Translations under genes and position numbers: made by a program | Part shown: positions 3,035 through 61,047 of the stretch, piece after piece | Position numbering within the stretch: position 1 is the stretch's first letter | Layout: each line of letters opens with the position of its first letter | The notes under the pieces: generated by a model | What the model saw: the letters and a program-made list of their open reading frames with translations, nothing else | What the model was told of the DNA's origin: nothing | The model's database searches: none | Virus record (IMG/VR): IMGVR_UViG_3300028920_000057 | Location: 24,897-88,896 of that record | Source: a virus | Length of the DNA stretch: 64,000 bases | Direction: 5' to 3' (one strand)

Positions 3035-3047
3035 TTATCTCTCCGTA

Positions 3048-3788: not shown

Positions 3789-3801
3789 TTATAGACTCCT
3801 A

Positions 3802-33712: not shown

Positions 33713-33723
33713 TTATTTTCTCC

Positions 33724-37325: not shown

Positions 37326-37343
37326 AATATGCCCCTCTTTATA

Positions 37344-37376
37344 TGAAAAAACCCCTGGCCGAAACCAGGGGTTCTT
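37344..37376 (-). terminator. Intrinsic terminator after major capsid gene
   Basis: On the minus strand the stem AACCCCTGG pairs with CCAGGGGTT around a six-base loop and is followed by a T run. It lies about 20 bp beyond the MCP stop. With the one after the tube gene, it sits behind the two most abundant virion proteins. Confidence 0.9.
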
Positions 37377-37397
37377 AATATCGCACTACATAGTGGA

Positions 37398-43090: not shown

Positions 43091-45633
43091 TATACTGTCC
43101 TCATAACTCGTTTAAGTAATTCTGACTGGTTAATGTCCTCAAAGCAGGACTCGATATTTTCTATACTCAGAGATCCGCTCGCAGCCCCTTCTCCTACACT
43201 CTTGATAAATAAATCTCTATTTCTAAGATTCGCCCCAACAGGATTGATCGGGATATCATTATCTGTGTAAAATGCTTCTGTATCGCTAAATGTATTAAAG
43301 ATAGAGGGTTGCAGAATCAAATCCTTTAAATTCTTTGTTTGAATCCGTTTCAGTTTCCGGCTGTTTTTACTACCAGTTCCGTCTCCAGATATAACGTCGA
43401 GATCGGTGATAACCTGATTTTCAAAATCATCTTGTGCTATTCCAGAAAGATTATTATAAAATATGTAATCATTTTGTCTACCCGACTCCTTCAGGGCGGC
43501 ATCAAGCAGGCGTCTTGTGTCTGGATCTTCAAACGGATCACCAGTCAAAGCACAATTATTCCCTCTTTCAACCGCTTCTATTATAGCGTCTATCAAGATA
43601 AATAAACTGCGGGCCCATTTCTGTTCTTTAAGAATGGAAATCTTATAATCCAGAGTCATTGTAGATAGATCTATCTTTTCCAAAATATCGTCTATCAACT
43701 CGTCCAAAGTTACCTTCATTTCTTCTATAGTATTCAACATAAATCTAATTACTACGTTTAACGGCAAACAGTTCATTAGAAATTGCATCGCTTCTGAATC
43801 AAGCCATTTGAATACATAATTAAAGATTTTATCAAAAGTCTTATTGATAATAGCAACAAGAGACGCTCGCGCCTTGGCAAGCATGTCGTCATAAATATCC
43901 GACATCATTTTATTTAAAAAGGCTCCAAGATCAAACGTAAGACCCTTAGCAAATAGCTGAAGTATAGACCGGATAGAATGTAACAAAGATACGTCGACTG
44001 CCCCAAAATATCTTACAAAACAGCAGATTGCGGCTGCAACCCACGGGTCATCAGTTAAAAATGCGGCGAGCCTATTTGTCTTTTCGTTATACGCACATGC
44101 CTGTTGGTGAAATGCATCTTTAACATTATCAAGCATTTTAGACGGACTGAATATATCTTTTGCAGCATCACTGATCGCTTCGCGGCTTGCTTTCCCAGAA
44201 GGCCTGTTCTTTCCGAACAAAGGATTGTCATATTCAACTACTTCCTGGGTTGGCTTAATTTTAACAGAACCTTTATCTGCTACTCCCGAGCTCACACTTC
44301 CTCCGGCTCTAACTGCTCGATTAAATGCTTGGCGCTCGGTATCGATACTAGTACTTACCGGATCTGTACGAACGGGCTCCTGGTTGGTTGCTTTAGCTTC
44401 TTCGGCAAACATGGGAGAGAAATTAGGAGCTTGTTCAAGACTGTTTTGTACGTCATAAATCATGGATTCCAATTCAGGAAGCACGAACCAATGAGAAAAG
44501 TCTTCTTTTCTCGCAGGAGTAACGGCATTTATAGTAAGCCATGAAATACCGTATTCATAAATTATATCATAATCTCCTCTTCTGAAATAAGACTTGATAA
44601 CATCAAGAACATCTTCAGAAAAACCTATTGCTTCTGAAAAGTCTGCCAGTGTCTTTCCCTGGAATCGGCCATAAGGAATGGGCTCGTTATTGGCAAGCGC
44701 CTTGGCGGCATCAACAATTTCCGCCTTATCTATATCTCCAGCATCTTCGGGCAGCACGACAAGGTCTAGTACTGTCTCGACTTCTTCTGCGAGAAGACCC
44801 TCAATAAGAAAATGCATAGCTAAACCTATGATGATCTGCATTATCATGATAAAAACGCCCGCAGGATTAGGCATAAGAGTTGAAGCTTTAGACTGCAAAT
44901 ACGTCTGTGGTGCTTTCCACATGGCAAGTTTATGGTTGAGAAAATATAAGACAACAAGCGCAGCGCCATATACAAGCAATTCCGCAAGAGCACTCGGCCC
45001 ACTTGCAATAACTCTTTCCCTCCATCCAAATGCCGGCTCGCTGAAATTGGGAGTATTGAATTCACCGTTCTTGGCGGCTTTGTCTCTCATTTGATTTTGA
45101 TATAACTCCCATGCCTTAATTGAATCTTGCAAGATTTGACTATCCTGCATATCGTTGCCAGTAAGCTGTTCGAGAAAAGTGGAACCTATAAACTCTGCCT
45201 GTTTAACTTTGCGATCTACGACCTCTTGCCACATCGGAAAATATATCTTATCATGATTAGGGGTTGATCCTGGGAAAACCCGACTGATAGCCTTGCGTAC
45301 TGTATCCATCCCTTCAACAGGTATATAAAGCTTTTCTCTGGCATTCTGTGCATTTTCTATCATACTTCTCAGGAGTATTGCCTTGCCTGCAACAGAATAA
45401 AGATTTGCGAATATCTGATCTTCATCTGTTATAAGAGACTTCTCTGTTTGCACGCGACTCATATTCTGGCTAAGAGGAGCTTTAAGATCTCCATAGGCTG
45501 GGATACCTGCCGCTTTTAATTCCCTAATTGCATCTTCAAGACTTCCGGCTTTATCCATTATAGTCCTGATTTCATCAGTAACTTCACGACGTACGTCCGG
45601 TTCTATCGTTGGTTTTTTTCTTCTAATGGCCAT
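43090..45633 (-). CDS. Large membrane-segment protein between terminase and portal
   Basis: The 847-residue protein was not recognised. Two hydrophobic segments long enough to span a membrane occur at residues about 215-232 and 259-277. Its C-terminal half is strongly helical, including amphipathic helices such as IRSILQLFAKGLTFDLGAFL. It overlaps TerL (TAATG) and portal, so it is translated as part of the head block. A virion protein delivered into the host, or a portal-associated core protein, is plausible; there is no diagnostic motif. Confidence 0.7.
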   Translation of the reverse strand: MAIRRKKPTIEPDVRREVTDEIRTIMDKAGSLEDAIRELKAAGIPAYGDLKAPLSQNMSRVQTEKSLITDEDQIFANLYSVAGKAILLRSMIENAQNAREKLYIPVEGMDTVRKAISRVFPGSTPNHDKIYFPMWQEVVDRKVKQAEFIGSTFLEQLTGNDMQDSQILQDSIKAWELYQNQMRDKAAKNGEFNTPNFSEPAFGWRERVIASGPSALAELLVYGAALVVLYFLNHKLAMWKAPQTYLQSKASTLMPNPAGVFIMIMQIIIGLAMHFLIEGLLAEEVETVLDLVVLPEDAGDIDKAEIVDAAKALANNEPIPYGRFQGKTLADFSEAIGFSEDVLDVIKSYFRRGDYDIIYEYGISWLTINAVTPARKEDFSHWFVLPELESMIYDVQNSLEQAPNFSPMFAEEAKATNQEPVRTDPVSTSIDTERQAFNRAVRAGGSVSSGVADKGSVKIKPTQEVVEYDNPLFGKNRPSGKASREAISDAAKDIFSPSKMLDNVKDAFHQQACAYNEKTNRLAAFLTDDPWVAAAICCFVRYFGAVDVSLLHSIRSILQLFAKGLTFDLGAFLNKMMSDIYDDMLAKARASLVAIINKTFDKIFNYVFKWLDSEAMQFLMNCLPLNVVIRFMLNTIEEMKVTLDELIDDILEKIDLSTMTLDYKISILKEQKWARSLFILIDAIIEAVERGNNCALTGDPFEDPDTRRLLDAALKESGRQNDYIFYNNLSGIAQDDFENQVITDLDVISGDGTGSKNSRKLKRIQTKNLKDLILQPSIFNTFSDTEAFYTDNDIPINPVGANLRNRDLFIKSVGEGAASGSLSIENIESCFEDINQSELLKRVMRTV

Positions 45634-47606
45634 TAAAAGGATCTCCCTTTACGTCCTGATGACATAAGTTTCATAAATTTAGAACGGCCGCCAAATGTGA
45701 CACCTCTCTTATCTTGAGACTCTTTAGTTCTACTCATGACATGAAAGGATTTGCCCCCCTTGACAAAATCTTTACTGGGGTCATCCGGCTCCTTGCGTGG
45801 CGCTTGTATTAAAGTGTCTTTGGCAATTTGTGATTCAAACGTTTCTTCTTTCAGTACCTTAAATGGCATAAAAGCGATATGGCCGCCAGATGCGACTTTG
45901 GCTATATCGGAGAATTCCATAGTAATAGCAAAGACAGACAAAAGCCAAGCTACCGCCTCGTGATCTTTACCTTGGGAATAGACAGGAATGCCAGTGGGCG
46001 TATAGCGCTCGATCTCAAGGTTTCGAAGTTGATCTACAAGTCCCCCTTCTTCGTTCTCGAAGTGGGGGAATGCGCACATATCGTTCTCGACTCGACGTAC
46101 CGCAAGATCTATCATCAGAGATTTATTCTGCTTCTCTATTTTCTTCTTTGAAACAGGATCTCGAATTATTGTCTTCCCATGCATATGTATCGCTTTAGCC
46201 GCTTTTAACAGCTTATCGTTATGAGCCTCTTTTGCATAAGCTCTCAACATTTCAAACTGAGCATTACCATATCCGGCATCCAGATAAATATAGTTCGCAT
46301 TCCATTTCTCGAACATCGTAATAATATCTCTGATAGCCGTTAATTGGGTAAATTCGTCCGACATACTTGTTTTCTTATCTACCACAACATAACGGTTGGA
46401 TACTCTGTCAAACTCAGTAACGATAATAGGAATGCCGTTGGCAGCTCCATTCCAGTCTACTCCGATGCAATATATGTTATTCGGATTGTATCGATCAATG
46501 CCATACTTATAAGTATAAAGCGAATCAATAAGTTTGTTAGTAGGAAATACGCCTCCTTCTACAGTCCCGAATTCTGCTTCTATTTCATGTTCCCATGCTG
46601 CTCTGGAATATTGCGCCCTCAGAAGGCGCTCTGTCTTGTCTGTCCATTCTGGAGATTCCTTTGCAGATACGTGGAAATGTTTGAAGCCCTGACGCTTATC
46701 TGTGCAGAACCCATAGAATTTACCGCGCTTACCAGACGGAGTAGAAGTTACCCATAATTCAGTATCTTTAGAATCTGTAATAATCGCTATAGTAGATTCG
46801 ATATCAGAGTCTGGGATATAATCAACTTCATCCATATATATAATCGTAGCACCCTGACCACGGGTCTTATCTGATTTAGATCCCGTCTTAGATCCCGTAC
46901 AAAACCCTTTTGCCTGAGAATTATTTCCCATCTTATAGATTTGATTGGGAGATTTTGTTCTGCGGTTTTCAGATTCGCAAAGGGTATTAGAATTGACAAT
47001 AAGTTCGTCTATCTTCTCAAATATTTCGTCTACCTGTGGCTGATAAGGAGCAAGAACAAGAACGCGCTCTGCGGCCTGTTTTTCATCTTCGTTGAGACGA
47101 GCGAGTTGCATCCTATGAAGAATGCGCCCAACCTGAGAGTGCGTTTTCCCACTCCTTCTTCCCCACCTAAGAGCCTTCATACGAGCCGTGCAACAAACAG
47201 CATCTTCCTGATACCACCGAAGATTAATTCCCAATTCTTGTTTAAACCACACTACAGGATTAAACATACCCGCTACGGCGAATTCCTCGTCGGACATCCC
47301 TCCTTCTATTCGTCCAAGCCCACATCTTAAATCTCCATGACATTCTACGGGGAACATGTCTGTTTCGGGCTCTGGTTTGCCAGCAATCTGTCTGTTAATC
47401 TTTTGTTCTTCTGTCTCTTTTACATCAAGCTCACCGTTGATATATGCTTCTCTATATTCTTGGATGCAAGCTCGGCACATAGGACTGTCACTATAGGCAC
47501 AGCCGGTTTTATTCTCACAAATCCATTTATCGAACTTTTCACCACGAGCTTTACGCTCGGCAAAGGTCTCCTCGGCATCTTGTTGGCTGAGCACTTTTTC
47601 AGACAT
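45633..47606 (-). CDS. Terminase large subunit
   Basis: The 657-residue protein combines the packaging ATPase and nuclease. Walker A is WGRRSGKT (residues 148-155), Walker B is TIIYMDE (254-260, with D259 and E260), and the coupling motif is VTSTPSG (286-292). RNase H-like nuclease acidic residues are at D384 (IGVDWNG), D443 (IYLDAG) and D548 (KDHEAVAW). The N-terminus, before the ATPase, has extra cysteines C30, C36, C44 and C47, plus C89 and C95, a possible metal site. It pumps DNA into the prohead through the portal. TAATG overlap with both neighbours. Confidence 0.93.
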   Translation of the reverse strand: MSEKVLSQQDAEETFAERKARGEKFDKWICENKTGCAYSDSPMCRACIQEYREAYINGELDVKETEEQKINRQIAGKPEPETDMFPVECHGDLRCGLGRIEGGMSDEEFAVAGMFNPVVWFKQELGINLRWYQEDAVCCTARMKALRWGRRSGKTHSQVGRILHRMQLARLNEDEKQAAERVLVLAPYQPQVDEIFEKIDELIVNSNTLCESENRRTKSPNQIYKMGNNSQAKGFCTGSKTGSKSDKTRGQGATIIYMDEVDYIPDSDIESTIAIITDSKDTELWVTSTPSGKRGKFYGFCTDKRQGFKHFHVSAKESPEWTDKTERLLRAQYSRAAWEHEIEAEFGTVEGGVFPTNKLIDSLYTYKYGIDRYNPNNIYCIGVDWNGAANGIPIIVTEFDRVSNRYVVVDKKTSMSDEFTQLTAIRDIITMFEKWNANYIYLDAGYGNAQFEMLRAYAKEAHNDKLLKAAKAIHMHGKTIIRDPVSKKKIEKQNKSLMIDLAVRRVENDMCAFPHFENEEGGLVDQLRNLEIERYTPTGIPVYSQGKDHEAVAWLLSVFAITMEFSDIAKVASGGHIAFMPFKVLKEETFESQIAKDTLIQAPRKEPDDPSKDFVKGGKSFHVMSRTKESQDKRGVTFGGRSKFMKLMSSGRKGRSF

Positions 47607-48331
47607 TAATACCCCATTCCCTGAATACGGTTGTGTTGAGGCTGTGTGTTACGCATCATCCCACTCATAGCGGCGCCAAAGCCCAGTGCGGCAATGCCTC
47701 GGACGGCTCTGTTCTTCATAATTCCTCCGATAGCACGTCCCGATGGAATCTTAGACGTAGAAAGAAAGCGCCCGGTTGCACCCAGACTGGCATACGCAAT
47801 ATAGCCGCTTATGGCTCCTTTCATAATTCCTGTAGAACCTCCCGCCGTACGAACCGAAGCTCCTTGAACATCAGAGGCCCCGGTCGCGTCTAGATAGTCG
47901 TGCTGAAGTCCTGCTGCGCCAACGTTAGATCTGGCGGCTGCTTCAGACAATAGAGCAACTCCGGCTCCGGCTCCGACCAAACCCCCTGCGATAGCGTGCG
48001 TCGTGCGCGTAAATCCTTCGCCTGGAAGTCGCGATACTGCCTTCGACATCTTGCGAAGACCTCCTTCTCGAAGAGCTTCGAGGGTTCGATACATAGTTCT
48101 ACTACCTCCAAGTGCCATCCCTGCAAGCCCACCAGCGATCGCGGCTCCGACTCCTACTCCGCTAAAAACAGTCTGAGCAGTTAATGCGGCCTCAATAGCC
48201 TGGTTCTCACGTTCGTTTACAGGACTCGCGCCCCTATCGGAGGAGAAAGGGCCGACAATGTTGGCTCCAGCAGCAGCGATCCCGGCGCTACCAATGCCTC
48301 CTGCCATTAAAAGCTTTCTTATAGTTGCCAT
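47606..48331 (-). CDS. Glycine-zipper hydrophobic virion protein
   Basis: The 241-residue protein is Gly/Ala-rich with repeated hydrophobic glycine-zipper segments (LLMAGGIGSAGIAAAGANIV near the start, VGVGAAIAGGLAGMALGG near residue 60, HAIAGGLVGAGAGVALL near residue 112). Such segments are typical of small channel-forming or membrane-inserted virion proteins. The C-terminus is polar (MMRNTQPQHNRIQGMGY). It is coupled to TerL by overlapping stop/start. The function is not known. Confidence 0.65.
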   Translation of the reverse strand: MATIRKLLMAGGIGSAGIAAAGANIVGPFSSDRGASPVNERENQAIEAALTAQTVFSGVGVGAAIAGGLAGMALGGSRTMYRTLEALREGGLRKMSKAVSRLPGEGFTRTTHAIAGGLVGAGAGVALLSEAAARSNVGAAGLQHDYLDATGASDVQGASVRTAGGSTGIMKGAISGYIAYASLGATGRFLSTSKIPSGRAIGGIMKNRAVRGIAALGFGAAMSGMMRNTQPQHNRIQGMGY

Positions 48332-48343
48332 TGTATTTTCCTG

Positions 48344-49219
48344 TTATTGGTGTACCACCGTGGCTTCTCTGCCAAACACTTGTCGCAACTGCGACTGCGT
48401 ATTATGTATAGCCGCAAGAGATCTCTGTCTCATGGTAGCGGCACCTCTGTTATCAAAGAATTGTCCTCCCATTTCAGTCATAGTGAATTCCTTTTGTTTC
48501 CGTAGTGAGCGGCCATAGGACGCTACCCCTTCGTAAATATCTCCGTACGCAGAAGTAAGACCCATTATCCCTTGAAAGGCAAAAAACTTGGCGGCACCAT
48601 GAAAAGCCAAGCCAGCCCATTCCATCCCCTTAGCCATACCGATACTTCCTTTTATTGGAATCTCTCCCAACAGAGGTAATCTCAATGTCGCCTTGTTAGA
48701 TACCGCCCTCTCAAGAGCTTCGGACATCACTTTGCTTTCACTAAACGCTTGTTCTAAAGCAGCCACTGGCCGGCTTTTGGCAAACATAACACCGCTTTTT
48801 CTAGCTCTCCGTTTGGCTATCTGCTCAAACTGCCCAAAGGTGCGCCTGTCAAATTCCTTGATGCCTGTGGGTCTCCATGCTGTATCGTCAAAAACTCGCC
48901 TAATAATACCACTATGTACACTCTGTCGGCCAATTGCCAGGCCCGGCTGAGTTGTACCAAATATCCTTTGAGCAAAGAACTGTTTCTTGCTTGCCATCTT
49001 GACTTCTGCTTCAAAGGCTTCGCTGGGAACTCCGGCAAACTGAGCCATAGCGCTTGCAGTAAATCCATACGCCCCCCTGGTGGCGAACTGTTCTATCGCA
49101 GTGTTGACGACTAGGTTCCCCGCGAATGATGCGATCCCTTCTTCGCCAAATGGGGTTGCCCATCCCGTTGCCATGAACGATGGGTCGTACTCGGAAAAAG
49201 CAGCTGGATTAATAGGCAT
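48344..49219 (-). CDS. Virion protein of unknown function in packaging block
   Basis: The 291-residue protein was not recognised. It is basic, with Phe/Ala-rich segments and one moderately hydrophobic region (GMEWAGLAFHGAAKFFAFQGI, about residues 205-225). It lies between the DEDDh/membrane fusion and the Gly-zipper protein, 12 bp and 8 bp from its neighbours. Internal virion protein is inferred from context. Confidence 0.62.
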   Translation of the reverse strand: MPINPAAFSEYDPSFMATGWATPFGEEGIASFAGNLVVNTAIEQFATRGAYGFTASAMAQFAGVPSEAFEAEVKMASKKQFFAQRIFGTTQPGLAIGRQSVHSGIIRRVFDDTAWRPTGIKEFDRRTFGQFEQIAKRRARKSGVMFAKSRPVAALEQAFSESKVMSEALERAVSNKATLRLPLLGEIPIKGSIGMAKGMEWAGLAFHGAAKFFAFQGIMGLTSAYGDIYEGVASYGRSLRKQKEFTMTEMGGQFFDNRGAATMRQRSLAAIHNTQSQLRQVFGREATVVHQ

Positions 49220-49227
49220 ATTAGCTC

Positions 49228-51363
49228 CTATACTAGAGCGAGACCGTGAGGCCTGCTGTTAAACTGTTCTGTATGCCGATAGGGGTGTCTATATACATGC
49301 CCCGGCTTATAGTTTACCATTGCACGAGATGTCTGTTGATTATACTTTATCATTTGCGGCTGTCTACTCGGCATTGCCGGACTTGGAGGAATGACTTTAT
49401 TGTTCTGGCTTCCACTCATAACATACGAACCTAGAGCAAGGCCAATACCTCCAATAATCGTTCCTTTAGCCATTTTGCTTTGTCTAATATTCTTTGCCAA
49501 GGCATTGAATGTCTCTGCAAAATAGCCTCCTCCCGACATAACTCCTTTCTCGACCTTTTGAGCAATCTTCTCGCCCGCCTCGTTATACAGCTCGCCGAAC
49601 TTCCTAGTACCAGGCATTAGTCTGTCTCGAATCCCGGTAAAAGCTCGACCAAAAGCCAAGTCTGCATCATAACCAGCGCTGCCGTAAATTCCGTAAGCAG
49701 TTACTCCCAACAAGCCTACGGCTGCGGCCATCGTCGGATGACGCATCTTTTCTCCTGGCCGACCTCTATCGTTCAGGATGTTATGTGTAGTAGATACTGC
49801 GGCATAGCCAAGGAGCCCTAGAGATCCAAATCGTGCAATCTTCCCTCCAAAAGATGAGACTCTGTCCCCCATCACGTGAGAAAGGGATGCTTTGAGATTC
49901 GGATAGCCTGGTACAATCTTGTTTGCATTCCATGTCGCGGCTCCAAGCCCTCCTGCAATCATTGCGTCGACAAATGGGTCACTCGGATCTCCTGCCCATC
50001 TGTCCAGAGTCTCTTGCGCAGGAGACTTACTCATGAAACGATAAGCAGTAAAGCCGCCAAGCATACCTATACCAACGCCCAGCCAGCCCATCTTTCTGCC
50101 AGTCTCGCCCAGAGTACCTTCAAAAAGCGCAACTGTTCTATTAATTTTTATCTTCTCTGAGATCTCCTCGGCCGTATCAGTCATAAACTCGAGCTTCTTG
50201 GTCCTCACGAACGGCTTTCCGTCGTCTCCCAGATAAAGGTTCTTTTCTACATTGGCCTTTTCTGCTCTGGCTCTTTTCTTTTTCTTAGCCTGATCTACCT
50301 GTCCTGCTCGAGTCTGTACTTGAGGAAATCCCGGAGCCACCTTTGTCCAGCTATCCTGCATACCTGCGACGACTTCCCCTTCGTCAGTCACTACGGCGAA
50401 TTGCGTCAGAATATCATTACCAAGGGTATCGGGCAGGGCTGAGTGAGCTGTCTCAACATGAATACGAACGCCATCGATTTCAAGCGTCTTACCAGGACGA
50501 CGTCCGGTATTCGGATTCGCAAGGATATCTTCCTGCTTAAGACTTGGAACAAATCCCTCCGGCACGTTCTCTCCAAAGGGGATCTCTTGAGTGTCGATCC
50601 ATCTCAGCTTGTCATTATGGATCGCATCCTTTAGTCTCGTAATAAGCTTGTATCGTTTGGAGCGTTTATCCTTTATTGTTCTTTGTACTGCGCGGAAATG
50701 ACCGTATAAACGTTGTGCATCGAAATCTCGCACATTGTGTCCAGTAACTGTTCCGGCATGTTCAAACAGATAGATCATCTGTTCCAGCTGTTCGTCTGAA
50801 AGAGCCTTGCCCGCTAAGTCTCCATATGTAATATTGCCCCTAAAAACCTTTTGGGCCCCTTTCTCAATAATTTCGTCAGGCTTTGCTTTCTTATGAGCAT
50901 CACTTATGAGTCGTGGATCTTGTAGCGCATCAAAGTTAAACAGGGTACTGATTTTTTCCCCTGTCTTGACATTGTGTTGAGTAACGTGCATGGAGATCTG
51001 AAACACCGCCTCGGCATTACCAAGGCCGGTAGTTTCAAGATCGAGGAAGATATTGAGAGATCTATTCTTGAAGGATTTAGATTTGACAGTGTCCTGCAGA
51101 TTAAGGAAAGCCTTGTTGTCGTCCAGCCAGCCGGATCTCCTGCCAAACTTATATTTGTAACGGTGGCCACCCTCGGTAATGACGGATAGCGCCTGGTCTT
51201 CTGCCTTGGTCAGTGGCCTCATTACGCCTTTGCGGCCAGAATGAACGTCTGTTGCCTCCGGGTCCCAGACGTAGGGGTAATCTTCACCATAAAGGTGATA
51301 GATAACACTCCCTTCGGTAAACTTCACTCCGCCTTGTTTGGCTGTTTTAGGCCTCTTCGCCAT
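49228..51363 (-). CDS. DEDDh 3'-5' exonuclease fused to a hydrophobic virion-like region
   Basis: The 711-residue protein contains a complete DnaQ-family exonuclease. Exo I is FLDLETTG (D108, E110), Exo II is TGHNVRDFDAQRL (D213 or D215), and Exo III is HSALPD (H307, D312). These give the four acidic residues and the general-base histidine of the DEDDh class. The next 380 residues contain Gly-rich hydrophobic segments (MGWLGVGIGMLGGFTAYR near 420, SLGLLGYAAVS near 525) and a polar C-terminus. It lies in the packaging block, not with replication genes. Its 3' end overlaps nothing, but its 5' end overlaps the 308-aa-class upstream gene by 17 bp. An injected or DNA-end-processing nuclease is inferred. 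Confidence 0.85.
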   Translation of the reverse strand: MAKRPKTAKQGGVKFTEGSVIYHLYGEDYPYVWDPEATDVHSGRKGVMRPLTKAEDQALSVITEGGHRYKYKFGRRSGWLDDNKAFLNLQDTVKSKSFKNRSLNIFLDLETTGLGNAEAVFQISMHVTQHNVKTGEKISTLFNFDALQDPRLISDAHKKAKPDEIIEKGAQKVFRGNITYGDLAGKALSDEQLEQMIYLFEHAGTVTGHNVRDFDAQRLYGHFRAVQRTIKDKRSKRYKLITRLKDAIHNDKLRWIDTQEIPFGENVPEGFVPSLKQEDILANPNTGRRPGKTLEIDGVRIHVETAHSALPDTLGNDILTQFAVVTDEGEVVAGMQDSWTKVAPGFPQVQTRAGQVDQAKKKKRARAEKANVEKNLYLGDDGKPFVRTKKLEFMTDTAEEISEKIKINRTVALFEGTLGETGRKMGWLGVGIGMLGGFTAYRFMSKSPAQETLDRWAGDPSDPFVDAMIAGGLGAATWNANKIVPGYPNLKASLSHVMGDRVSSFGGKIARFGSLGLLGYAAVSTTHNILNDRGRPGEKMRHPTMAAAVGLLGVTAYGIYGSAGYDADLAFGRAFTGIRDRLMPGTRKFGELYNEAGEKIAQKVEKGVMSGGGYFAETFNALAKNIRQSKMAKGTIIGGIGLALGSYVMSGSQNNKVIPPSPAMPSRQPQMIKYNQQTSRAMVNYKPGHVYRHPYRHTEQFNSRPHGLALV

Positions 51364-52195
51364 CGGTTACCTCTACTTCTATGACCTTTTCTTTGTCTTC
51401 TTGTGCTTTTTTATTAAGCTCACGTTTAGCGGCGTTGGCAAAGGCCGATACAATGGAACTTGCATCTTTCGTGTTGCCGGCACCAGCCTTTACTCTTGCC
51501 TTTCGTGTTGCCACGAGGTCGTCCAGTAAACGACCCTTTTCCTTCCCAAGCTTGGATATAACGTTGATTCTCGGATTTTCAATTTCTGTCATGATAGGAT
51601 CACCGTTGTCATCTACTCCGACGCATTTTTCTCTAACCGTCTGGGGATCCATCGCCATCTCCCAGTTGGCTCTAAGCTGAAGTATTTCGAGCTCTGCGAG
51701 TTCGTTGATCTGGTTTCGGTCTATAGCCATCATCTCATCATCTGAATCAACCTCGAGTTCCACCATCTTTTGTTTCTTCCAGTTGTCAAACAAATGGGTT
51801 TCAACAGGACATGGTTTTAAAAGAGGAGGGCTAAGCTCTGCCTTAACTACGGGACACATATTATAATATGGGCATTTCTGCCCTAGACAGATCATGGGTA
51901 CCGCAGCTTGATATCCGTCTACCATGCGTCTGGCAAATTGTGCCAGCGTTTTCATGGCAGCTTCTGTAACTACCAGTTCCTGCCCTTCGGGCATAAGCGC
52001 CAGTAAATTTTGTATAATAGGGTCTTTAACTGTCGAAGATCTTGTGAGAGTAAGGACGTTGTCCTGTCCCTTCAGCTGATGCTTCTGAGGACGTTTCTGG
52101 AGATAGGTAGCATTACACCCCGTCGAGGATTCTACGACTGTTGTATCTTCCTGTGGCTTTTCCAACTCGTCGTCTGGGCTGAACTTGTCACTCAT
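51347..52195 (-). CDS. Cys-cluster protein, small terminase candidate
   Basis: The 282-residue form starts at ATG 52195 behind GGGAG; a longer upstream start would extend 26 codons but lacks a good site. A cysteine cluster (CLGQKCPYYNMC, then PCPVE) about residues 100-135 could bind zinc or iron. Long helical segments rich in Glu follow, including ELAELEILQLRANWEMAM. It is the first gene of the packaging block and lies just after a hairpin-rich region, two features expected for a small terminase. There is no helix-turn-helix I can point to, so the assignment is only contextual. Confidence 0.6.
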   Translation of the reverse strand: MSDKFSPDDELEKPQEDTTVVESSTGCNATYLQKRPQKHQLKGQDNVLTLTRSSTVKDPIIQNLLALMPEGQELVVTEAAMKTLAQFARRMVDGYQAAVPMICLGQKCPYYNMCPVVKAELSPPLLKPCPVETHLFDNWKKQKMVELEVDSDDEMMAIDRNQINELAELEILQLRANWEMAMDPQTVREKCVGVDDNGDPIMTEIENPRINVISKLGKEKGRLLDDLVATRKARVKAGAGNTKDASSIVSAFANAAKRELNKKAQEDKEKVIEVEVTDGEEA

Positions 52196-52213
52196 TCTTA
52201 CTCCCATATAAGT

Positions 52214-52260
52214 AAGCCACCGTGGTTCGCGACACCCCGAAGGGTCTAAGCGTGGTGGCT
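52214..52260 (-). promoter_or_regulatory. Structured 5' leader (nested stem-loop) before the packaging genes
   Basis: Seven-base arms AGCCACC (52254-52260 complement) and GGTGGCT enclose an inner stem ACCC-UUCG-GGGT (read on the minus strand). The structure ends about 10 bases before the GGGAG site of the 282-residue gene. It could control translation, act in mRNA stability, or be a DNA-level terminase recognition site. Confidence 0.55.
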
Positions 52261-52285
52261 GTTGAAAAAACATACCATTATTTTC

Positions 52286-52312
52286 ATCAAAAAAGACTCC
52301 CCGAAGGGAGCC
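52286..52312 (-). terminator. Intrinsic terminator with UUCG tetraloop
   Basis: On the minus strand GGCTCCC-TTCG-GGGAGTC is followed by six T. It ends the transcript that begins with the nucleotide-sugar genes and separates it from the packaging genes, implying a distinct promoter or regulated read-through for late genes. Confidence 0.85.
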
Positions 52313-52404
52313 ATAAACAGTGCCATGACAAAGTCATAAGCAGGTTTTGATACGCAGTCCGTATTCGGACTGACGCTTGGGGCTCGAGTCGTATGAGCCT
52401 CAAC
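52312..52404 (-). other. Hairpin cluster, candidate structured RNA or packaging site
   Basis: Between the 50-residue ORF and the terminator are three further perfect hairpins: ATGAC/GTCAT (52324-52336), CAGTCC/GGACTG (52355-52372) and GGCTC/GAGCC (52381-52399). No convincing ORF occupies this stretch. With the terminator and the leader there are five hairpins in 190 bp. No known RNA family was recognised. Confidence 0.5.
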
Positions 52405-52557
52405 TTATTTGAACAAGCCCTTAGACTTGCTTCCTAGACCAGAACCAGGAGTCTGGTTATTGGGAGGAGGCGTGGGCTGTCCCGGAATCTTAACTGGTTT
52501 CGTTGCTGAAAGATTCGGCTGCGTAGCAGCAATCTGATTCGAACTTGTAACTGCCAT
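52405..52557 (-). CDS. Small 50-residue Pro/Gly-rich protein
   Basis: A 50-residue ORF starts at ATG 52557 with GTAGGAG upstream. It is Pro/Gln/Ser/Gly-rich (IPGQPTPPPNNQTPGSGLGS) and likely disordered, ending in a basic KSKGLFK. It lies 9 bp after the lipase gene stop in transcription order and is last before the terminator. Function unknown; good site and conserved spacing support translation. Confidence 0.6.
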   Translation of the reverse strand: MAVTSSNQIAATQPNLSATKPVKIPGQPTPPPNNQTPGSGLGSKSKGLFK

Positions 52558-52566
52558 TTTCAACTC

Positions 52567-53343
52567 CTACAAAAGTTTTTCCAATGCTTTTACATAACCT
52601 TCGACACTGTGATCTTTATAAGACCACGGACTGAATGTGCAGACCCAATCTGCGAGCTCGTCGAGTTTCTTCATGTAATAACCTTTACTATGGATTCTGA
52701 CTGGCTTGCCTGCATGCTTATAGATCTTAAACGGAGGTAACGCGGGGACTACGTCATTCTGCAGCCTAATGCGCCATGTTTCATCAATTTGTGAATGAGA
52801 CTTGGCAAACGTCTTATCTCCCGTCTTTGGGGACCCAAAAGTATAACACGCCGAGATATAGCCATAGGCCCTCATATCCATCGCACATTGTTGTGCAAGT
52901 GGTCCGCCCATACTGAAGCCGGCGCAGTAAACTTTTGCAACTTCCAATGACCTCATTGCTTTTTTAATTGTTTTTGCAACAGCATGGTAAGCCGCATGAT
53001 ATCCAAGATGAACCTTGCCTGCGAAGTTATCTCCAGGTTTACGGTTGATAAATTGCGCATTTGTTTTCCAGTCTTTAAGGTTCCATGGCTCTGTACCTCT
53101 GAAGACTATGGCGCATGCTGTCTTTGACAACTTGAAGATACCAACCTGAACATCGAGTTCTTTATTTTCGATCGATTGATACAGTCTTGGATTATTGGCA
53201 ACCTCAATCGACCTTATCTCCGAACAGAGCGTTGCAAGGTCATGTGCCATTTTTACGTCGAGTCCTTTTGGGGGAATCGTTTTATCTTTCCAGCGACCAA
53301 ACCAGCCCGATATTTTTTTCATGATTTTCTTTAAAGCTTGCAT
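52567..53343 (-). CDS. Class 3 lipase (alpha/beta hydrolase), possible lysis-related
   Basis: The 258-residue protein is a lipase_3-family hydrolase. The nucleophile elbow is GFSMGG with S144; the oxyanion strand motif VFRGTE precedes DWKTNAQF; D197 (NDVVPALPP) and H245 (DHSVEGY) complete the triad in the family's order. The N-terminal 22 residues are basic and amphipathic (KKIMKKISGWFGRWK) and may bind membrane. ATG 53343 shares one base with the stop of a 54-residue membrane peptide (TAATG), so the two are translated together. A role in host envelope breakdown is inferred; a virion or superinfection role is possible. No endolysin is seen in the window. Confidence 0.88.
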   Translation of the reverse strand: MQALKKIMKKISGWFGRWKDKTIPPKGLDVKMAHDLATLCSEIRSIEVANNPRLYQSIENKELDVQVGIFKLSKTACAIVFRGTEPWNLKDWKTNAQFINRKPGDNFAGKVHLGYHAAYHAVAKTIKKAMRSLEVAKVYCAGFSMGGPLAQQCAMDMRAYGYISACYTFGSPKTGDKTFAKSHSQIDETWRIRLQNDVVPALPPFKIYKHAGKPVRIHSKGYYMKKLDELADWVCTFSPWSYKDHSVEGYVKALEKLL

Positions 53344-53507
53344 TATTTACTCCAAAATAATGTTATAAGCCAGTATATTATACACGTAACAGGGGTAAAT
53401 ATCAAGACCGCCCCTGTCATCACTACATTTGTGAGCCTAAAGTGGTAGTCATCCGCATCTCTGGCTTCCTGTAAATACGAGCGAATACCATCGCAAATAG
53501 CTTTCAT
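53343..53507 (-). CDS. 54-residue single-pass membrane protein coupled to lipase
   Basis: Not long enough for most ORF calls, but it has a GAGG site nine bases before ATG 53507 and its TAA overlaps the lipase start by one base. Residues about 28-51 form one membrane segment (MTGAVLIFTPVTCIIYWLITLF); the N-terminus is charged (RSYLQEARDADDYH). Size and context suggest a holin-, pinholin- or spanin-like partner for the lipase. The topology is predicted by eye. Confidence 0.65.
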   Translation of the reverse strand: MKAICDGIRSYLQEARDADDYHFRLTNVVMTGAVLIFTPVTCIIYWLITLFWSK

Positions 53508-53531
53508 ACAAAATACCTCGTTAGGTTAGAA

Positions 53532-53696
53532 TTAGTTTGCTTGAATCAAGCGGATAAGAAAGATTGCGTCCCGATAGTTTGTCAGACCGTCGCGGACATA
53601 CTTTCTCCAAATGAGATGAGAATTGAGGTGGTCGTATTGGGTAAGGAACTGGGGTGTGCGTTGACGCAGTAAGGTCAACGCATCTTGTTTACTCAT
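53532..53696 (-). CDS. 54-residue basic protein of unknown function
   Basis: A 54-residue ORF starts at ATG 53696, overlapping the end of the epimerase gene by eight bases (ATGAGTAA). It is helical and basic (LRQRTPQFLTQYDHLNSHL, IWRKYVRDGL). No family was recognised. Weak ribosome binding site, so coupling to the epimerase is the main support. Confidence 0.5.
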   Translation of the reverse strand: MSKQDALTLLRQRTPQFLTQYDHLNSHLIWRKYVRDGLTNYRDAIFLIRLIQAN

Positions 53697-54648
53697 AGTA
53701 ATCTTTGTACCATTCAACAAAAGCTTCCACCCCGTTTTCTACCGACACAACCGGTTTATAGCCAATATGTTCGAATAAACTATCCGTACTGGCATACGTC
53801 ATCTTCACATCGCCAAGCTGCATAGGCATAAGGTCTAACAGGGCCTCTTTTCCGGTAGCTTTTTCTATAGCGGCTATGAAGTCCATCAGGCGAACCGGTT
53901 CACCCCGCCCGATGTTGAACACCTTCAGGCCCGACGGCTTGAAGGTCACTCCCTTGATCCCTGCAACGATATCGTCCACGTAGGTGAAATCGCGCATAAG
54001 ATCCCCATTATTATACACAGGAATGGGTTCTCCTGCAAGGATCTTCTTTGTAAAGATAAATAGAGCCATATCCGGCCTACCCCATGGCCCATATACTGTA
54101 TGAAAGCGCAGACCAGTACACTGCATATTGTATAGCTTATTATATGCATGAGCCATAAGTTCGTTGCATCGTTTTGTAACACCGTAAAGAGAAGACTGAG
54201 TGTCGCATTTATGCGACTCTTTAGATGGAAACTCTGTCGAGTCCCCATAAACTGAAGAACTTGACGCATAAACAATGTGTCTAACAGGCCAGTGCCTGCA
54301 GCACTCTAACACATTTAAGAATCCTGTAATATTTGAATCTATATAAGTCTGAGGAGATTCCAAGCTATGACGAACGCCAGCTTGAGCAGCTAAGTGAATT
54401 ACATAATCTATATTACATGCAAGAAAAATTTTCTCTAGCCCTGCTCGATTTTCGAGTGAATCCTGGGTAAACTTGAAGTTGTCATAGATAGTAAGGCGTT
54501 TTAATCTCGCTTCTTTAAGACTGACATCATAATAGTCATTCATATTGTCATATCCAATGACTGTATGCCCAACATCCAGCAGTTTCTTTGCGGTATGAAA
54601 ACCTATAAAGCCTGCTGCCCCGGTAAGTAATATCTTTAGAGTCGCCAT
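53689..54648 (-). CDS. NAD-dependent nucleotide-sugar 4-epimerase (UDP-uronate/UDP-HexNAcA type)
   Basis: The 319-residue form starts at ATG 54648. It is a short-chain dehydrogenase-fold epimerase: NAD site TGAAGFIG (G10, G13, G16), NDYYDVSLKEARL typical of UDP-glucuronate 4-epimerases and TviC/CapI relatives, LAAQAGVRHSLESP, an SSSSVYG segment with the catalytic Ser, and YGVTK with Y155 and K159. Length is normal. Its start overlaps the dehydrogenase by 13 bp. Together they would turn a UDP-hexose or UDP-HexNAc into its uronic acid and then epimerise C4 (Vi-antigen TviB/TviC logic). The exact substrate cannot be read from sequence. Confidence 0.9.
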   Translation of the reverse strand: MATLKILLTGAAGFIGFHTAKKLLDVGHTVIGYDNMNDYYDVSLKEARLKRLTIYDNFKFTQDSLENRAGLEKIFLACNIDYVIHLAAQAGVRHSLESPQTYIDSNITGFLNVLECCRHWPVRHIVYASSSSVYGDSTEFPSKESHKCDTQSSLYGVTKRCNELMAHAYNKLYNMQCTGLRFHTVYGPWGRPDMALFIFTKKILAGEPIPVYNNGDLMRDFTYVDDIVAGIKGVTFKPSGLKVFNIGRGEPVRLMDFIAAIEKATGKEALLDLMPMQLGDVKMTYASTDSLFEHIGYKPVVSVENGVEAFVEWYKDYYE

Positions 54649-55892
54649 ACGTATTGCCCCGATTTTGGTTCCACACAACCTTTGACGTCAATTATTACGT
54701 CATATTCATCAAAGAATCCCTTTTGTTTAAATTGCTTATGGTCAACAGCTACAATAGCTATTGCCATATCCTGCGGTTCGATAGGTTCAATACCAAATAC
54801 CCTTTTCATTGACAGACTGTCAACATACGGATCCATTCCTTCTACTATAACCCCATACTCCTTCAATTCTTTTATTATATCAACTACCTTTGAATTCCTT
54901 AAGTCAGGACAATTAGCCTTAAAAGTAAGACCATAGATATGAAATGCCGCTGAAGCCAAATTCCGGGCCATCATTAACTTTATTGCCTTAGACGCTACAA
55001 AGCGCCCCATCGAATCATTTATCCGTCTCCCGGCCAGGATTAGCTCTGGATTGTACCCTACAGCCCGAGCCTTGTATGTAAGATAATAAGGATCAACACC
55101 TATACAGTGACCTCCTACCAGACCCGGCTTAAAGTCAAGAAAATTCCACTTGGTACAAGCTGCCCTTAAAACCTCAAGAGTGTCAATTTGCAATTTGTCA
55201 AATAGTAAAGCCAGTTCATTCATAAGGGCTATATTCAAATCACGCTGGGTGTTCTCAATAACCTTGGCCGCCTCAGCAACCCTGATAGATGAACACCTGA
55301 ACGTACCAACCTTGACGATCGTATTGTAGACCGCCTCGACTACGTCGAGTGCGTCCTCATTAGAAGCGGATAGGAGTTTGGTAATTTTAGACAAAGTGCG
55401 CCGCTTATCACCAGGGTTGATCCTTTCAGGAGAATAACCAACAAAGAAGTCCTTGTTGTAAACAAGGCCCTCGCTCTCAAGAATAGGAATACAAACCTCC
55501 TCAGTAGTACCAGGATAGACGGTTGACTCATAGACAACTATATCTCCCTTAGATAAGACACTCGCGGCCAGACGAGATGCCTCGATCAAAGGAGTAAGGT
55601 CCGGCTTCTTGTGGTCGTCCACTGGTGTAGGTACTGCCACAATATAAAAATCACACTTGGCTATGTCTTTAGAATCAAAAGTGTATTTGACGTCCGTAGC
55701 AAGCAAGTCCTTAATGGCTACCTCGTAAGTGCGATCAACACCCTCCCTGAGCTCACCAATACGCTGTTTGTTGACATCAAAACCGATAACGCGTCCGAAT
55801 TTACCCAAAGCTACAGCAACCGGCAACCCAACGTAGCCCAAACCAATTACTGCAACCTTCCTGTTATGTCCATTTTTAGGTGTAATGCGCAT
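54636..55892 (-). CDS. UDP-sugar dehydrogenase (UDP-GlcNAc/GalNAc or UDP-Glc type)
   Basis: The 418-residue protein is a UDP-glucose/GDP-mannose dehydrogenase. The NAD fold is VAVIGLGYVGLP (G17, G19, G22). The catalytic cysteine is C263 in GGHCIGVDPYYLTYKA, a form characteristic of the WbpA/WbpO/TviB group acting on UDP-HexNAc. Also present are YSPERINPGD and GLTFKANCPDLRNSKV. It oxidises a UDP-sugar C6 to the uronic acid with two NAD+. It is the first gene after the promoter of the minus-strand operon and is coupled to the epimerase by a 13-bp overlap. Phage copies may alter host surface polysaccharide or feed glycosylation. Confidence 0.92.
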   Translation of the reverse strand: MRITPKNGHNRKVAVIGLGYVGLPVAVALGKFGRVIGFDVNKQRIGELREGVDRTYEVAIKDLLATDVKYTFDSKDIAKCDFYIVAVPTPVDDHKKPDLTPLIEASRLAASVLSKGDIVVYESTVYPGTTEEVCIPILESEGLVYNKDFFVGYSPERINPGDKRRTLSKITKLLSASNEDALDVVEAVYNTIVKVGTFRCSSIRVAEAAKVIENTQRDLNIALMNELALLFDKLQIDTLEVLRAACTKWNFLDFKPGLVGGHCIGVDPYYLTYKARAVGYNPELILAGRRINDSMGRFVASKAIKLMMARNLASAAFHIYGLTFKANCPDLRNSKVVDIIKELKEYGVIVEGMDPYVDSLSMKRVFGIEPIEPQDMAIAIVAVDHKQFKQKGFFDEYDVIIDVKGCVEPKSGQYVWRL

Positions 55893-55919
55893 TCGTGTAG
55901 TCTCCCAGAAGTTTTACAA

Positions 55920-55949
55920 CATTATACCCATATAGGGTAGAAAATGCAA
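55920..55949 (-). promoter_or_regulatory. Sigma70-like promoter for the minus-strand operon
   Basis: On the minus strand TTGCAT (55944-55949) and TATAAT (55921-55926) are separated by 17 bp, close to the ideal sigma70 consensus. Transcription would start near 55914, leaving a short leader with GGGAG before ATG 55892. Recognised by host RNA polymerase, so these genes are probably expressed early. Confidence 0.75.
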
Positions 55950-56025
55950 ATAATATATTTTAAGACAAAGACGCGCCCGGATCCGAAAAGCTGACATATA
56001 TGAGCCCCCCGGGGTTGTTTTCCGT

Positions 56026-56122
56026 GCGTGTGATCGAAGCGATATTTAAGCGTGCGCGTAACCTGAAGGACACTCGCTCCCGCGTGTGATCGAAGCGATA
56101 TTTAAGCGTGCGCGTAACCTGA
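56026..56122. repeat. Two perfect 41-bp direct repeats between divergent operons
   Basis: The segments 56026-56066 and 56082-56122 are identical over 41 bp, with a 15-bp spacer (56-bp period). Each contains GTGTGATCGAAGCG and GCGTGCGCGTAACCTGA. They lie in the 405-bp divergent gap (55893-56297), which otherwise contains the promoter, an ACGGAC-type motif at 56183-56204 and no gene I can support. They could bind a regulator or replication protein. Confidence 0.85.
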
Positions 56123-56182
56123 GCCTATAGGCGAAGGCAGGTGGAGTGTTTCCGTCCGCGTGACCATTTTCTCTCTTTCTCC

Positions 56183-56204
56183 TTTATACGGACTTTACTT
56201 TCAC
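56183..56204 (+). promoter_or_regulatory. ACGGAC-type motif, candidate phage promoter (no terminator attached)
   Basis: TTTATACGGACTTTACTTTC matches the motif that follows most terminators of the plus-strand region (e.g. TTTTAAACGGACCTTACTAT at 57047-57065). Here it occurs without a terminator, which argues that it is a signal in its own right. It lies 94 bp before the start of the first plus-strand gene. Confidence 0.45.
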
Positions 56205-56297
56205 CGTTTCGAGCCCCTGGGTTAGTTATTACTTCTTTACCGTACATGGGGAGTACCTTTAATTATCTTTTTAATCTTTTTACTATTAGGAGTTATT

Positions 56298-56525
56298 ATG
56301 ATTACTTCAGCTATTAACCTCAAATCTCTTCCCTTTATTAACTTTGATGAAATTGGTTTAAATTGTATGTTTGATGCTGATTATGCATTTATTAGAGAAT
56401 CTAAAAGAACAGGTAAACGTTTTATTCACACATACCATGATAAGAACGAATTCAAACAAGTAATAGTAGAAGAAATGTCAGTACCTAGTACTGCATTCCA
56501 TAAGAAGTTCTTCCGTGTTATCTAA
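56298..56525 (+). CDS. 75-residue hypothetical protein
   Basis: Starts at ATG 56298 after TAGGAG and is followed at once by a terminator. It is basic and aromatic-rich (HTYHDKNEFKQVIV). No family was recognised. First gene of the plus-strand side, AT-richer in codons than the late genes. Confidence 0.7.
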   Translation: MITSAINLKSLPFINFDEIGLNCMFDADYAFIRESKRTGKRFIHTYHDKNEFKQVIVEEMSVPSTAFHKKFFRVI

Positions 56526-56543
56526 TATACCTACTTGTATATA

Positions 56544-56577
56544 AAGGGTACTACTATGTAGTACCCTTTTTTTATTT
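56544..56577 (+). terminator. Intrinsic terminator
   Basis: GGGTACTAC pairs with GTAGTACCC around a three-base loop and is followed by seven T. It directly follows the 75-residue gene. Confidence 0.9.
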
Positions 56578-56658
56578 AGTATACCCTCAATAGCTATATA
56601 CCTGTAGTAGCGAACCCCTATATACCCTTATTAGCCACCCTTATTATGGAGCAGTATC

Positions 56659-56724
56659 ATGACTCGTTATATCCCCTTTATTATTATTGCCACTGTTACA
56701 GTATGTGCTATGTGTATACTGTAA
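56659..56724 (+). CDS. 21-residue membrane peptide
   Basis: ATG 56659 follows GGAGCAG and opens a 21-residue ORF that is almost wholly hydrophobic (YIPFIIIATVTVCAMCIL). The stretch has its own terminator just downstream. Possible toxic, regulatory or membrane micro-protein; too short to be called by length alone. Confidence 0.45.
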   Translation: MTRYIPFIIIATVTVCAMCIL

Positions 56725-56755
56725 GTACCTCTCTACTATAACCCCCCCCTACTAT

Positions 56756-56787
56756 AAAGGCCCTTCCTATAAGGGCCTTTTTTATTT
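56756..56787 (+). terminator. Intrinsic terminator
   Basis: AAGGCCCTT pairs with AAGGGCCTT around a five-base loop and is followed by a T run. It ends the 21-residue ORF's unit and is followed by the ACGAACC form of the recurring motif and TTTACTATCATTAA. Confidence 0.9.
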
Positions 56788-56812
56788 AGAACGAACCCTT
56801 TACTATCATTAA
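56778..56812 (+). promoter_or_regulatory. Recurring post-terminator motif (candidate phage promoter)
   Basis: Downstream of the terminator T run, TTTAGAACGAACC and TTTACTATCATTAA match the other copies at 57047-57066, 57767-57780, 61572-61600 and 62086-62096. The motif starts inside the T run of the terminator. The ACTATCATT part recurs before the 56-residue gene and the 134-residue gene. Confidence 0.4.
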
Positions 56813-56832
56813 CCTATATATGGAGCAGTGCT

Positions 56833-57003
56833 ATGAAAGACAGAAAGAACATGACCAATGAAGAAGTGATCGCCCACAACGTAGCAGTAACCAAGAAACT
56901 GGATCACCCTGACGACAGAAGGGCGATGATAGCAGGCGCTATTAAAAAGCAGCCCCACAAGAGGGCTCTGTGGGAGGAGGTCCTGAGAAGGGCTCTCTCA
57001 TAA
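56833..57003 (+). CDS. 56-residue hypothetical protein
   Basis: Starts at ATG 56833 with GGAGCAG upstream, 56 residues, basic and helical (MTNEEVIAHNVAVTKKL, KRALWEEVLRRALS). It has its own terminator right after the stop. No family was recognised. Confidence 0.62.
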   Translation: MKDRKNMTNEEVIAHNVAVTKKLDHPDDRRAMIAGAIKKQPHKRALWEEVLRRALS

Positions 57004-57016
57004 GACCCCCCTATAG

Positions 57017-57047
57017 AAGGGCCTCCTTATGGAGGTCCTTTTTTATT
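57017..57047 (+). terminator. Intrinsic terminator
   Basis: GGGCCTCC pairs (one wobble) with GGAGGTCC around a TTAT loop, followed by a T run. The recurring motif TTTTAAACGGACCTTACTAT follows directly (57047-57065). Confidence 0.88.
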
Positions 57048-57111
57048 TTAAACGGACCTTACTATTGGGAACTTGTCCATCCCTTACCATTTTTTTATGA
57101 AAGGAGCTACT

Positions 57112-57492
57112 ATGCTCGCAGTTGGTTTTACACTTTTTCTCATCGCTTTTGTAGGAGCTATGTTCCTGCAAACAAAACGGTACGCATCTATGGTGCGTAA
57201 AACGATCGAAATTAACAACAAACAGGCCAGAGACCGGGACCTGAAGAACGTCGAGCGATGCTATCAGAATCACTTGATTCGCTTAGTCCAAAAGCAGCAT
57301 CGTATGATGCGCCAGATGGACCGTCAAGACCGTGCTCTCATAAGAGAGATGGTTAAGAACGGAGAAAAAAGAAATCGCGCCAAAACACAGTGGATGATCG
57401 ATCACCTTGGCCCGAAGTCTGTGTTAGAGAAAAGGCACGACACAGAAGGAAAACGATTCGAAGCATATTCATTATGCGAAGGGAGGATGTAA
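57112..57492 (+). CDS. 126-residue protein with N-terminal membrane segment and charged helical body
   Basis: AAAGGAG lies six bases before ATG 57112; an upstream in-frame ATG at 57073 lacks a site and is rejected. Residues about 1-20 are hydrophobic (MLAVGFTLFLIAFVGAMFL), followed by a basic helical region (RLVQKQHRMMRQMDRQDRALI). Ends at TAA overlapping the next ATG. Membrane-anchored, function unknown. Confidence 0.72.
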   Translation: MLAVGFTLFLIAFVGAMFLQTKRYASMVRKTIEINNKQARDRDLKNVERCYQNHLIRLVQKQHRMMRQMDRQDRALIREMVKNGEKRNRAKTQWMIDHLGPKSVLEKRHDTEGKRFEAYSLCEGRM

Positions 57493-57725
57493 TGGACCAG
57501 ATACAAGACGCCCTGATCGATCTCGTCAAAGAGGTCGAATACGAACTAGAAGACAAAGGTCTGGCATCATGGGATGCAGACCAGGCTGAGGCCTTCGGGC
57601 CTTTGGTCGAATTCATGGCAACTCTGGAAGACGCTGTCTTCCACATCAACGTACTGGCTGAGTACTCCTTTGACAACACGCCTTCGGTCATTGCCTCTAT
57701 GGCCTTGACTGAATCCAAGGCATAA
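57492..57725 (+). CDS. 77-residue acidic hypothetical protein
   Basis: ATG 57492 overlaps the stop of the previous gene by one base and has GGGAGG upstream at a good distance. The protein is acidic and helical (DLVKEVEYELEDKGL). Translationally coupled pair with the 126-residue gene; a terminator follows. Function unknown. Confidence 0.65.
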   Translation: MDQIQDALIDLVKEVEYELEDKGLASWDADQAEAFGPLVEFMATLEDAVFHINVLAEYSFDNTPSVIASMALTESKA

Positions 57726-57737
57726 TCCCACCACACT

Positions 57738-57770
57738 AAGGGGCCCTTAATTGGGTCCCTTTTTTATTTT
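57738..57770 (+). terminator. Intrinsic terminator
   Basis: AAGGGGCCC pairs (one wobble) with GGGTCCCTT around a six-base loop and is followed by a T run, then TTTTAAACGGTC, another copy of the recurring motif. Confidence 0.88.
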
Positions 57771-57788
57771 AAACGGTCGTTATTGGCC

Positions 57789-57816
57789 CCTCATGGTTAT
57801 CGGTCGCGCCATGAGG
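57789..57816 (+). promoter_or_regulatory. Perfect inverted repeat before the 1044-residue gene
   Basis: CCTCATGG (57789-57796) and CCATGAGG (57809-57816) are perfect 8-bp arms around a 12-base loop with no T run. It lies in the 187-bp gap upstream of the 1044-residue gene, which shows no ORF. Candidate operator or RNA hairpin. Confidence 0.5.
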
Positions 57817-57912
57817 TATATGAGCGCGTAAGTCTCGTCAGTTGATTAAGTTCAACGTGAGCTGCTGCATAGGCCACTTTATTAACTCCCATTATCTTGG
57901 AAAGGATTAACC

Positions 57913-60900: not shown

Positions 60901-61047
60901 AGTCAGCGGGATTGGGATCAGCGTCCTGCGGACATCAACCCTGAACTCGTCAAAGAAGTGAACGAATTCATTAAGTCCTGGTACGAGAATGAGTTTGTTA
61001 AGCAGGACAAAACAGAAGAGGAGGATGAAAATGTCTCATCTATTTGA
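57913..61047 (+). CDS. Large 1044-residue protein of unknown function
   Basis: Starts at ATG 57913 after AAAGGA. It is the largest plus-strand gene and is not recognised. An N-terminal hydrophobic segment (NMGISFAHLLVLTLFGLF) and an internal one (GAWFLIHLACRFILNY, about residue 640) are present. A segment near residue 515 reads TADFDDTAHVI (D515, D517, D518), which recalls the DFDGD loop of RNA polymerases but lacks the third Asp at the usual position. The segment after it has YRFPVRRNG. The C-terminal third is helical and acidic-to-basic mixed. It overlaps the 151-residue gene by 17 bp. Enzyme or host-takeover protein; no defended function. Confidence 0.75.
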   Translation: MGKAIVKALNMGISFAHLLVLTLFGLFESRKENWVGRGVVLDKNNLPAEIKRALTGVGRKPLYRKMKRNIVTAGAELVYFCSNPDQFAGQYGLTCGFFECENILGINVYKRVVGARKVSGGPVPYQQLECKVSPWFDENGKRKIVLMYKAFVKLNGKGRMKHPIEESLGGRYVYMVSEKNTRYMDVNVYSITWEEAAKVGFRRDEDGKIKGAKKILRRIFRHTGVPEVTRNMIAAGGYVDPDRVAINWDVHKDGCALMTTKFANRIARTQGKVVEMNNGTVTLDGRIKQGDTAMGQMMGGTFKKMMWIFVDKIQGHPEADIMLYGRHFVSKAHVQPMFKGCHVSFWKHRHNFRATVNLGMASVLEGVGKAIIQDLKVRIDELKADPEQVLVNDSRMPLIRMLKKFGVKEEYVKLMTLVRARGALMSKFKMLDGTEKKYRWRLRGTGSGHIMGYHHETMKGVIPQKQARWLQSLEGKSFKELNGVCPVVINKDGTLLFTTLKMADTVFHHRFDTADFDDTAHVIKVGETEPKRFKAVMYRFPVRRNGVIYADVWDSNSDRDWTKYDLEIIWGKYSNTEDPFECAPKDGNVVVTDPEDIKALEAKYVKACEEYAAQEAVTAEELRKEITKKEEELINFGAWFLIHLACRFILNYHRKFGIRFSVGRGALVITIASISPSDVLDWSLGLANLPEDLTREGLLEGMETFKDAVRNGELLAPRSMARVNPRALGVWSADEEQYADFEGEEYKEALASRTFEDEYEQDNVQIQEILKEFKATIDNQIDVALDAAEELICPGGGDWDDVNSGAWHLGKRIGAIHWQMGELAKNLNNLGLSKAEKNEFWRKRQTALNHLTRQMIDNCLPKAGSYKSRRRYVETLGWHLFEFMVIDRKYRYFTHDRGFDLACMGLIRERAGMLGAFKCQRHRTGQKSRWYDQAVKTVVGLTDVAFSMIGISEHNAKNTLKLTREIRWCNRIAGRDAAGNFLDEDQIDALNEKELKSQRDWDQRPADINPELVKEVNEFIKSWYENEFVKQDKTEEEDENVSSI

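Follow-up and report, generated by a model that had tools for sequence, protein, structure and literature searches.

Why would a virus encode an exonuclease beside its terminase? In the 64,000-nt stretch of viral DNA analysed here (the window), taken from a linear 88,896-base virus record that is itself a fragment, an open reading frame of 711 aa with an ATG start (49228-51363, minus strand) joins a DEDDh exonuclease domain to a Gly-rich, moderately hydrophobic region. The original prediction placed this fusion in the packaging block and took it for a nuclease that either processes DNA ends or is ejected with the genome, possibly as one of two nucleases in the virion.

Gene integrity and genomic context

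The exonuclease and its tail were found to belong to one gene, as predicted. Frame 0 gave the best codon-usage fit in all four segments tested, from end to end of 49228-51363, so that a frame error separating the two parts was ruled out. The proposed placement was also confirmed, as the gene adjoins those for terminase, portal and capsid. On the minus strand, the late block begins with gene A (51347-52273) and the 711-aa protein. These are followed by two small Gly-rich proteins, one flanking the slot described below and with homologs before terminase in relatives (48344-49219, identified by slot mapping), the other hydrophobic and without a Pfam or PHROGs family match (47606-48331). The terminase large subunit (45633-47606; phrog_2, E 4e-36), an 847-aa protein and the portal protein (41216-43090; phrog_9232, E 2e-41) come next, and then a protease-like protein, the capsid protein, sheath and tail genes. 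There is a 17-nt overlap between the exonuclease gene and gene A, which is itself preceded by a terminator-like hairpin (52312-52295). The exonuclease gene is thus probably the second gene of a terminase-portal-capsid operon.

Sequence comparison indicates that this large, uncultured phage is distantly related to Acinetobacter phage ME3, Moorella phage MTATph1 and Bacillus phage 0305phi8-36, the tie to the last going through the ME3 annotation rather than a direct comparison. Against their counterparts in MTATph1, Bacillus phage KLEB27-3 and ME3, its terminase, portal and capsid proteins show 26-33% identity. The homology of its terminase, portal, major capsid protein and hub, and the conserved order of their genes, assign it to the 0305phi8-36/ME3-like lineage. 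In this lineage the stretch between gene A and the large terminase is variable, and is referred to here as the slot. Gene A is Cys-rich and conserved across the lineage immediately upstream of the slot (alignment A4 and slot mapping). It had no family match. Four of its cysteines (C129, C134, C140 and C155) are invariant in A4, suggesting a metal or Fe-S site, and its conserved start is probably Met27. The 12-row gene A alignment was too divergent for scanning.

Just upstream of the head operon, 52567-55892 encodes a lipase-like protein, an NAD-dependent epimerase and a UDP-glucose/GDP-mannose dehydrogenase. Region 55900-57900 contains mainly short open reading frames and two copies of the direct repeat CGTGTGATCGAAGCGATATTTAAGCGTGCGCGTAACCTGA, and its plus strand has at least four strong T-tailed hairpins. 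Across 45000-57900, 29 terminator-like sites were counted, versus 11 in shuffled sequences. The plus-strand gene at 57913-61047 encodes a 1044-aa protein with no significant Pfam match.

The exonuclease domain and the Gly-rich region

The DEDDh domain spans residues 105-327 (50383-51051, minus strand). Residues 105-258 matched phrog_192 (DNA polymerase exonuclease subunit) with E 4e-8, while the Pfam RNase_T match was weak (E 0.0054, below cutoff); this was the one enzyme domain that Pfam and PHROGs recognised in the 711-aa protein. All three predicted Exo motifs were located on the minus strand. ExoI, DLETTG (residues 108-113, 51025-51042), supplies the D-x-E pair D108/E110; ExoII, HNVRDFD (residues 209-215, 50719-50739), supplies an aspartate; and ExoIII, HSALPD (residues 307-312, 50428-50445), supplies the H-x4-D pair H307 and D312. 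The original prediction allowed either D213 or D215 in ExoII. Alignment A6 comprised ten highly diverged domains, of which nine belong to proteins encoded at this genomic position (the slot) in relatives, and D215 is invariant in it. The predicted catalytic aspartate is therefore D215 and not D213.

Exactly eight columns of A6 were invariant: D108, E110, T111, T112, G113, D215, H307 and D312. That the catalytic residues and the T-T-G are the sole invariant positions among ten diverged domains implies that selection for catalysis acts on the domain. The ME3 and L054 copies have E in place of D in ExoII, which may leave certain copies with weak activity or none. Among 1456 open reading frames, the ordered ExoI-ExoII-ExoIII pattern, whose motifs were picked after the family had been seen, was confined to slot proteins apart from a single tail-block protein of MTATph1, and it occurred in 0 of 7280 shuffles. 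Against the PDB, the A6 profile matched DEDDh chains (best E 1e-4), with PolC exonuclease at E 6e-3 and TREX1 at E 0.03. No match was returned by phmmer with the full 711-aa protein against the PDB, by tblastn with the same protein against phages, or by scans of viral contigs with a single exonuclease or terminase sequence. AF2 models had pLDDT values of 45 (domain) and 37 (full length), too low for use, and the best Foldseek match to these low-confidence models, RNase HI (E 0.04), was not significant.

Behind the nuclease, residues 426-649 (49417-50088, minus strand) contain four Gly-rich stretches, at about residues 426-444, 505-523, 545-563 and 631-649. They are hydrophobic, as predicted, but only moderately so: the best Kyte-Doolittle value was 1.35 over 19 residues, below the transmembrane cutoff, and they were not retained as transmembrane segments.

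Nuclease modules in the slot and around the hub

Terminase- and portal-based scans yielded about 100 related loci, and gene A and bacterial genomes a few more. Relatives other than ME3, MTATph1 and KLEB27-3 come from metagenomes or bacterial assemblies, and many of the contigs are fragments. The 58 loci with a complete slot were grouped into 26 terminase clusters (70% identity, single linkage). A slot protein with checked DEDDh motifs was present in 10 of the 26 clusters, and the fusion, which the original prediction had proposed to seek in other large phages, is thus found beyond the window. The slot lacks DEDDh in the other 16 clusters, and the cultured KLEB27-3 is among the relatives without the domain. 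In the papers available for searching, this slot family was not described.

Several slot proteins carry further enzyme domains. DEDDh is combined with SNase in L059 (1784 aa), L054 (1521 aa) and L124 (1460 aa), with both a Bud32-like kinase and SNase in L042 (1457 aa), with a Cas4-like nuclease in L112 (596 aa) and L038 (609 aa), and with a DUF4406/deoxyribosyltransferase-like domain in L007 (929 aa). The L044 slot protein lacks DEDDh but carries SNase together with a short kinase-like match. In L114, a standalone 249-aa protein (11347-12096) with an RNase H-like 'FDIETAP' motif lies in the slot right before terminase, occupying the place of the fusion in others.

A linker with an FGSG signature was found in ten relatives' slot proteins and almost nowhere else, and is repeated in some. 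Its form is Y-N/D-T-I-x-G ... DFGSG-R/Y, and it lies after Gly-rich helices and between enzyme modules (L040, aa 258-299, 633-670 and 1340-1390; also L054, L042, L059, L044, L007, L038, L009, L011 and L012). A role as a signal for cleavage or loading is conceivable. The linker was absent from the 711-aa window protein.

The SNase-bearing hub of the original prediction was borne out. The 2801-aa baseplate hub-like protein (10163-18568, minus strand) has an SNase domain at residues 278-392 (17393-17737; Pfam SNase, E 6.5e-8), and is related to MTATph1 CDS0032 and to ME3_37, which is annotated 'baseplate hub protein'. ME3 (Acinetobacter phage vB_AbaM_ME3) repeats this pair. Its ME3_11 (KU935715, 5895-7484) occupies the slot between the gene A homolog and terminase, and has N-terminal DEDDh-like motifs (phrog_192, E 3e-6) and a C-terminal Gly-rich helix, while SNase is found in the hub ME3_37 (E 8e-17). 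ME3_11, annotated as hypothetical, differs from the window protein in its length of 529 aa, its ExoII glutamate and its weakly similar sequence. BtI1 belongs to the same lineage and likewise carries SNase on its hub protein, the utility of which its authors called obscure (PMC2147016). The passages of that paper that were consulted make no mention of a terminase-slot protein with DEDDh.

The DEDDh module is not confined to the slot. In MTATph1 it lies in CDS0027, which belongs to the tail block and precedes CDS0032, the hub-like protein with SNase. An Alicyclobacillus element and L129 likewise carry it in the tail position next to the hub. The window protein at this position (1857 aa, 18568-24141, minus strand) has no DEDDh. 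In some relatives both nucleases are found in one slot protein, or on tail-block proteins. Slot and tail DEDDh appeared mutually exclusive in 16 records, too few to claim such a rule.

Candidate nuclease cargo and its alternatives

On these comparisons, we lean towards the gene encoding a virion-associated nuclease cargo protein that is delivered at infection. The slot protein would be produced late, together with those of the head, and packed into the particle for delivery. Its N-terminal DEDDh domain, a presumed 3'-5' exonuclease, is followed by a Gly-rich region whose probable role is to hold the exonuclease in the head or aid membrane passage. Together with the hub-borne SNase, the protein would act on host nucleic acid, be it DNA, RNA or nucleotide signals. 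Catalysis, packaging, ejection and target of the slot exonuclease are what we infer from sequence. That distant relatives encode giant proteins with similar enzymes at this position suggests that nucleases enter the cell with the virus particle. Counted against cargo delivery were the single enzyme domain of the window protein, its missing FGSG linker, the sub-cutoff hydropathy, the patchy presence of the domain, and the ExoII glutamate in ME3 and L054.

The same operon position and 3'-5' exonuclease chemistry would also suit a packaging-linked enzyme that trims or matures genome ends beside its neighbour terminase, and either remains inside the head or exits it. We consider this distinctly improbable in view of the patchy occurrence of the gene, with DEDDh missing from the slot in 16 of the 26 clusters. 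The tail-block location of the domain in three relatives, and the kinase and deoxyribosyltransferase-like slot partners, which are ill-suited to packaging, also argue against it. The end-processing half of the original prediction was accordingly disfavoured. The best family match, phrog_192, would instead suggest a replicative or repair proofreader that happens to sit among head genes, and the protein resembles DnaQ/Pol III epsilon-type DEDDh exonucleases (phrog_192, PF00929) in family match and catalytic motifs. It differs from them in its fusion to a Gly-rich tail and in context, as 49228-51363 sits in the head operon rather than with replication genes. Moreover, the contigs of L038, L025 and the Alicyclobacillus element each encode a separate standalone DnaQ-like protein besides the virion-type DEDDh (the window contig itself is a fragment), so the slot DEDDh is probably not the replicative proofreader, and we rate this reading as quite improbable.

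It is also unlikely that the product is a structural or internal head protein whose DEDDh fold provides a scaffold, or is active only inside the producing cell, without ejection. The Gly-rich helices and the neighbouring small Gly-rich proteins do suggest an assembly role, and the E for D in ExoII of some relatives is consistent with it, but the restriction of invariance to the catalytic positions counts against this reading. Catalytic conservation, carriers in both the head operon and the tail block, enzyme partners and the separate DnaQ are better explained by a nuclease carried in the virion, and probably ejected, than by proofreading or end-trimming. The multi-enzyme slot proteins and the ME3 pair thus lend comparative support to the ejected-nuclease half of the original prediction and to its two virion nucleases.

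Polyvalent proteins are multi-enzyme proteins encoded among late virion genes and predicted to be injected (Iyer et al. 2017; PMC5512222). DEDD and SNase domains go unnamed in the text of that paper, and 'exonuclease' occurs only in its reference list (PMC5512222). The relatives' slot proteins resemble this class in combining unrelated enzyme domains in one polypeptide among late virion genes. The window protein shares the location near late virion genes, but it lacks the two or more disparate activities of the class, which are present in L042, L007 and L112. No zincin peptidase or MuF domain was found. Without the multi-activity architecture the window protein was not filed as a polyvalent protein, though by analogy it may work like one.

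More tentatively, and short of what we would call probable, the DEDDh, SNase and Cas4-like modules of this ancient lineage of large myoviruses may be interchangeable cargo, moving between the head-side slot protein beside terminase and the tail-block proteins around the hub, with the particle delivering the set at entry. If so, the long-noted, unexplained hub SNase of this lineage would be half of a recurring nuclease pair, and the polyvalent-protein idea would extend to DEDDh and SNase cargo. The cultured ME3 is a phage in which virion nuclease delivery is directly testable.

Many structural proteins of this phage also contain poly-serine tracts, 5-10 Ser long and frequently accompanied by Glu (window 3048-7020 and 31865-38792). 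Such tracts occur in L005 as well (1449-4079), and one poly-serine protein has about 20 SSSSS repeats.
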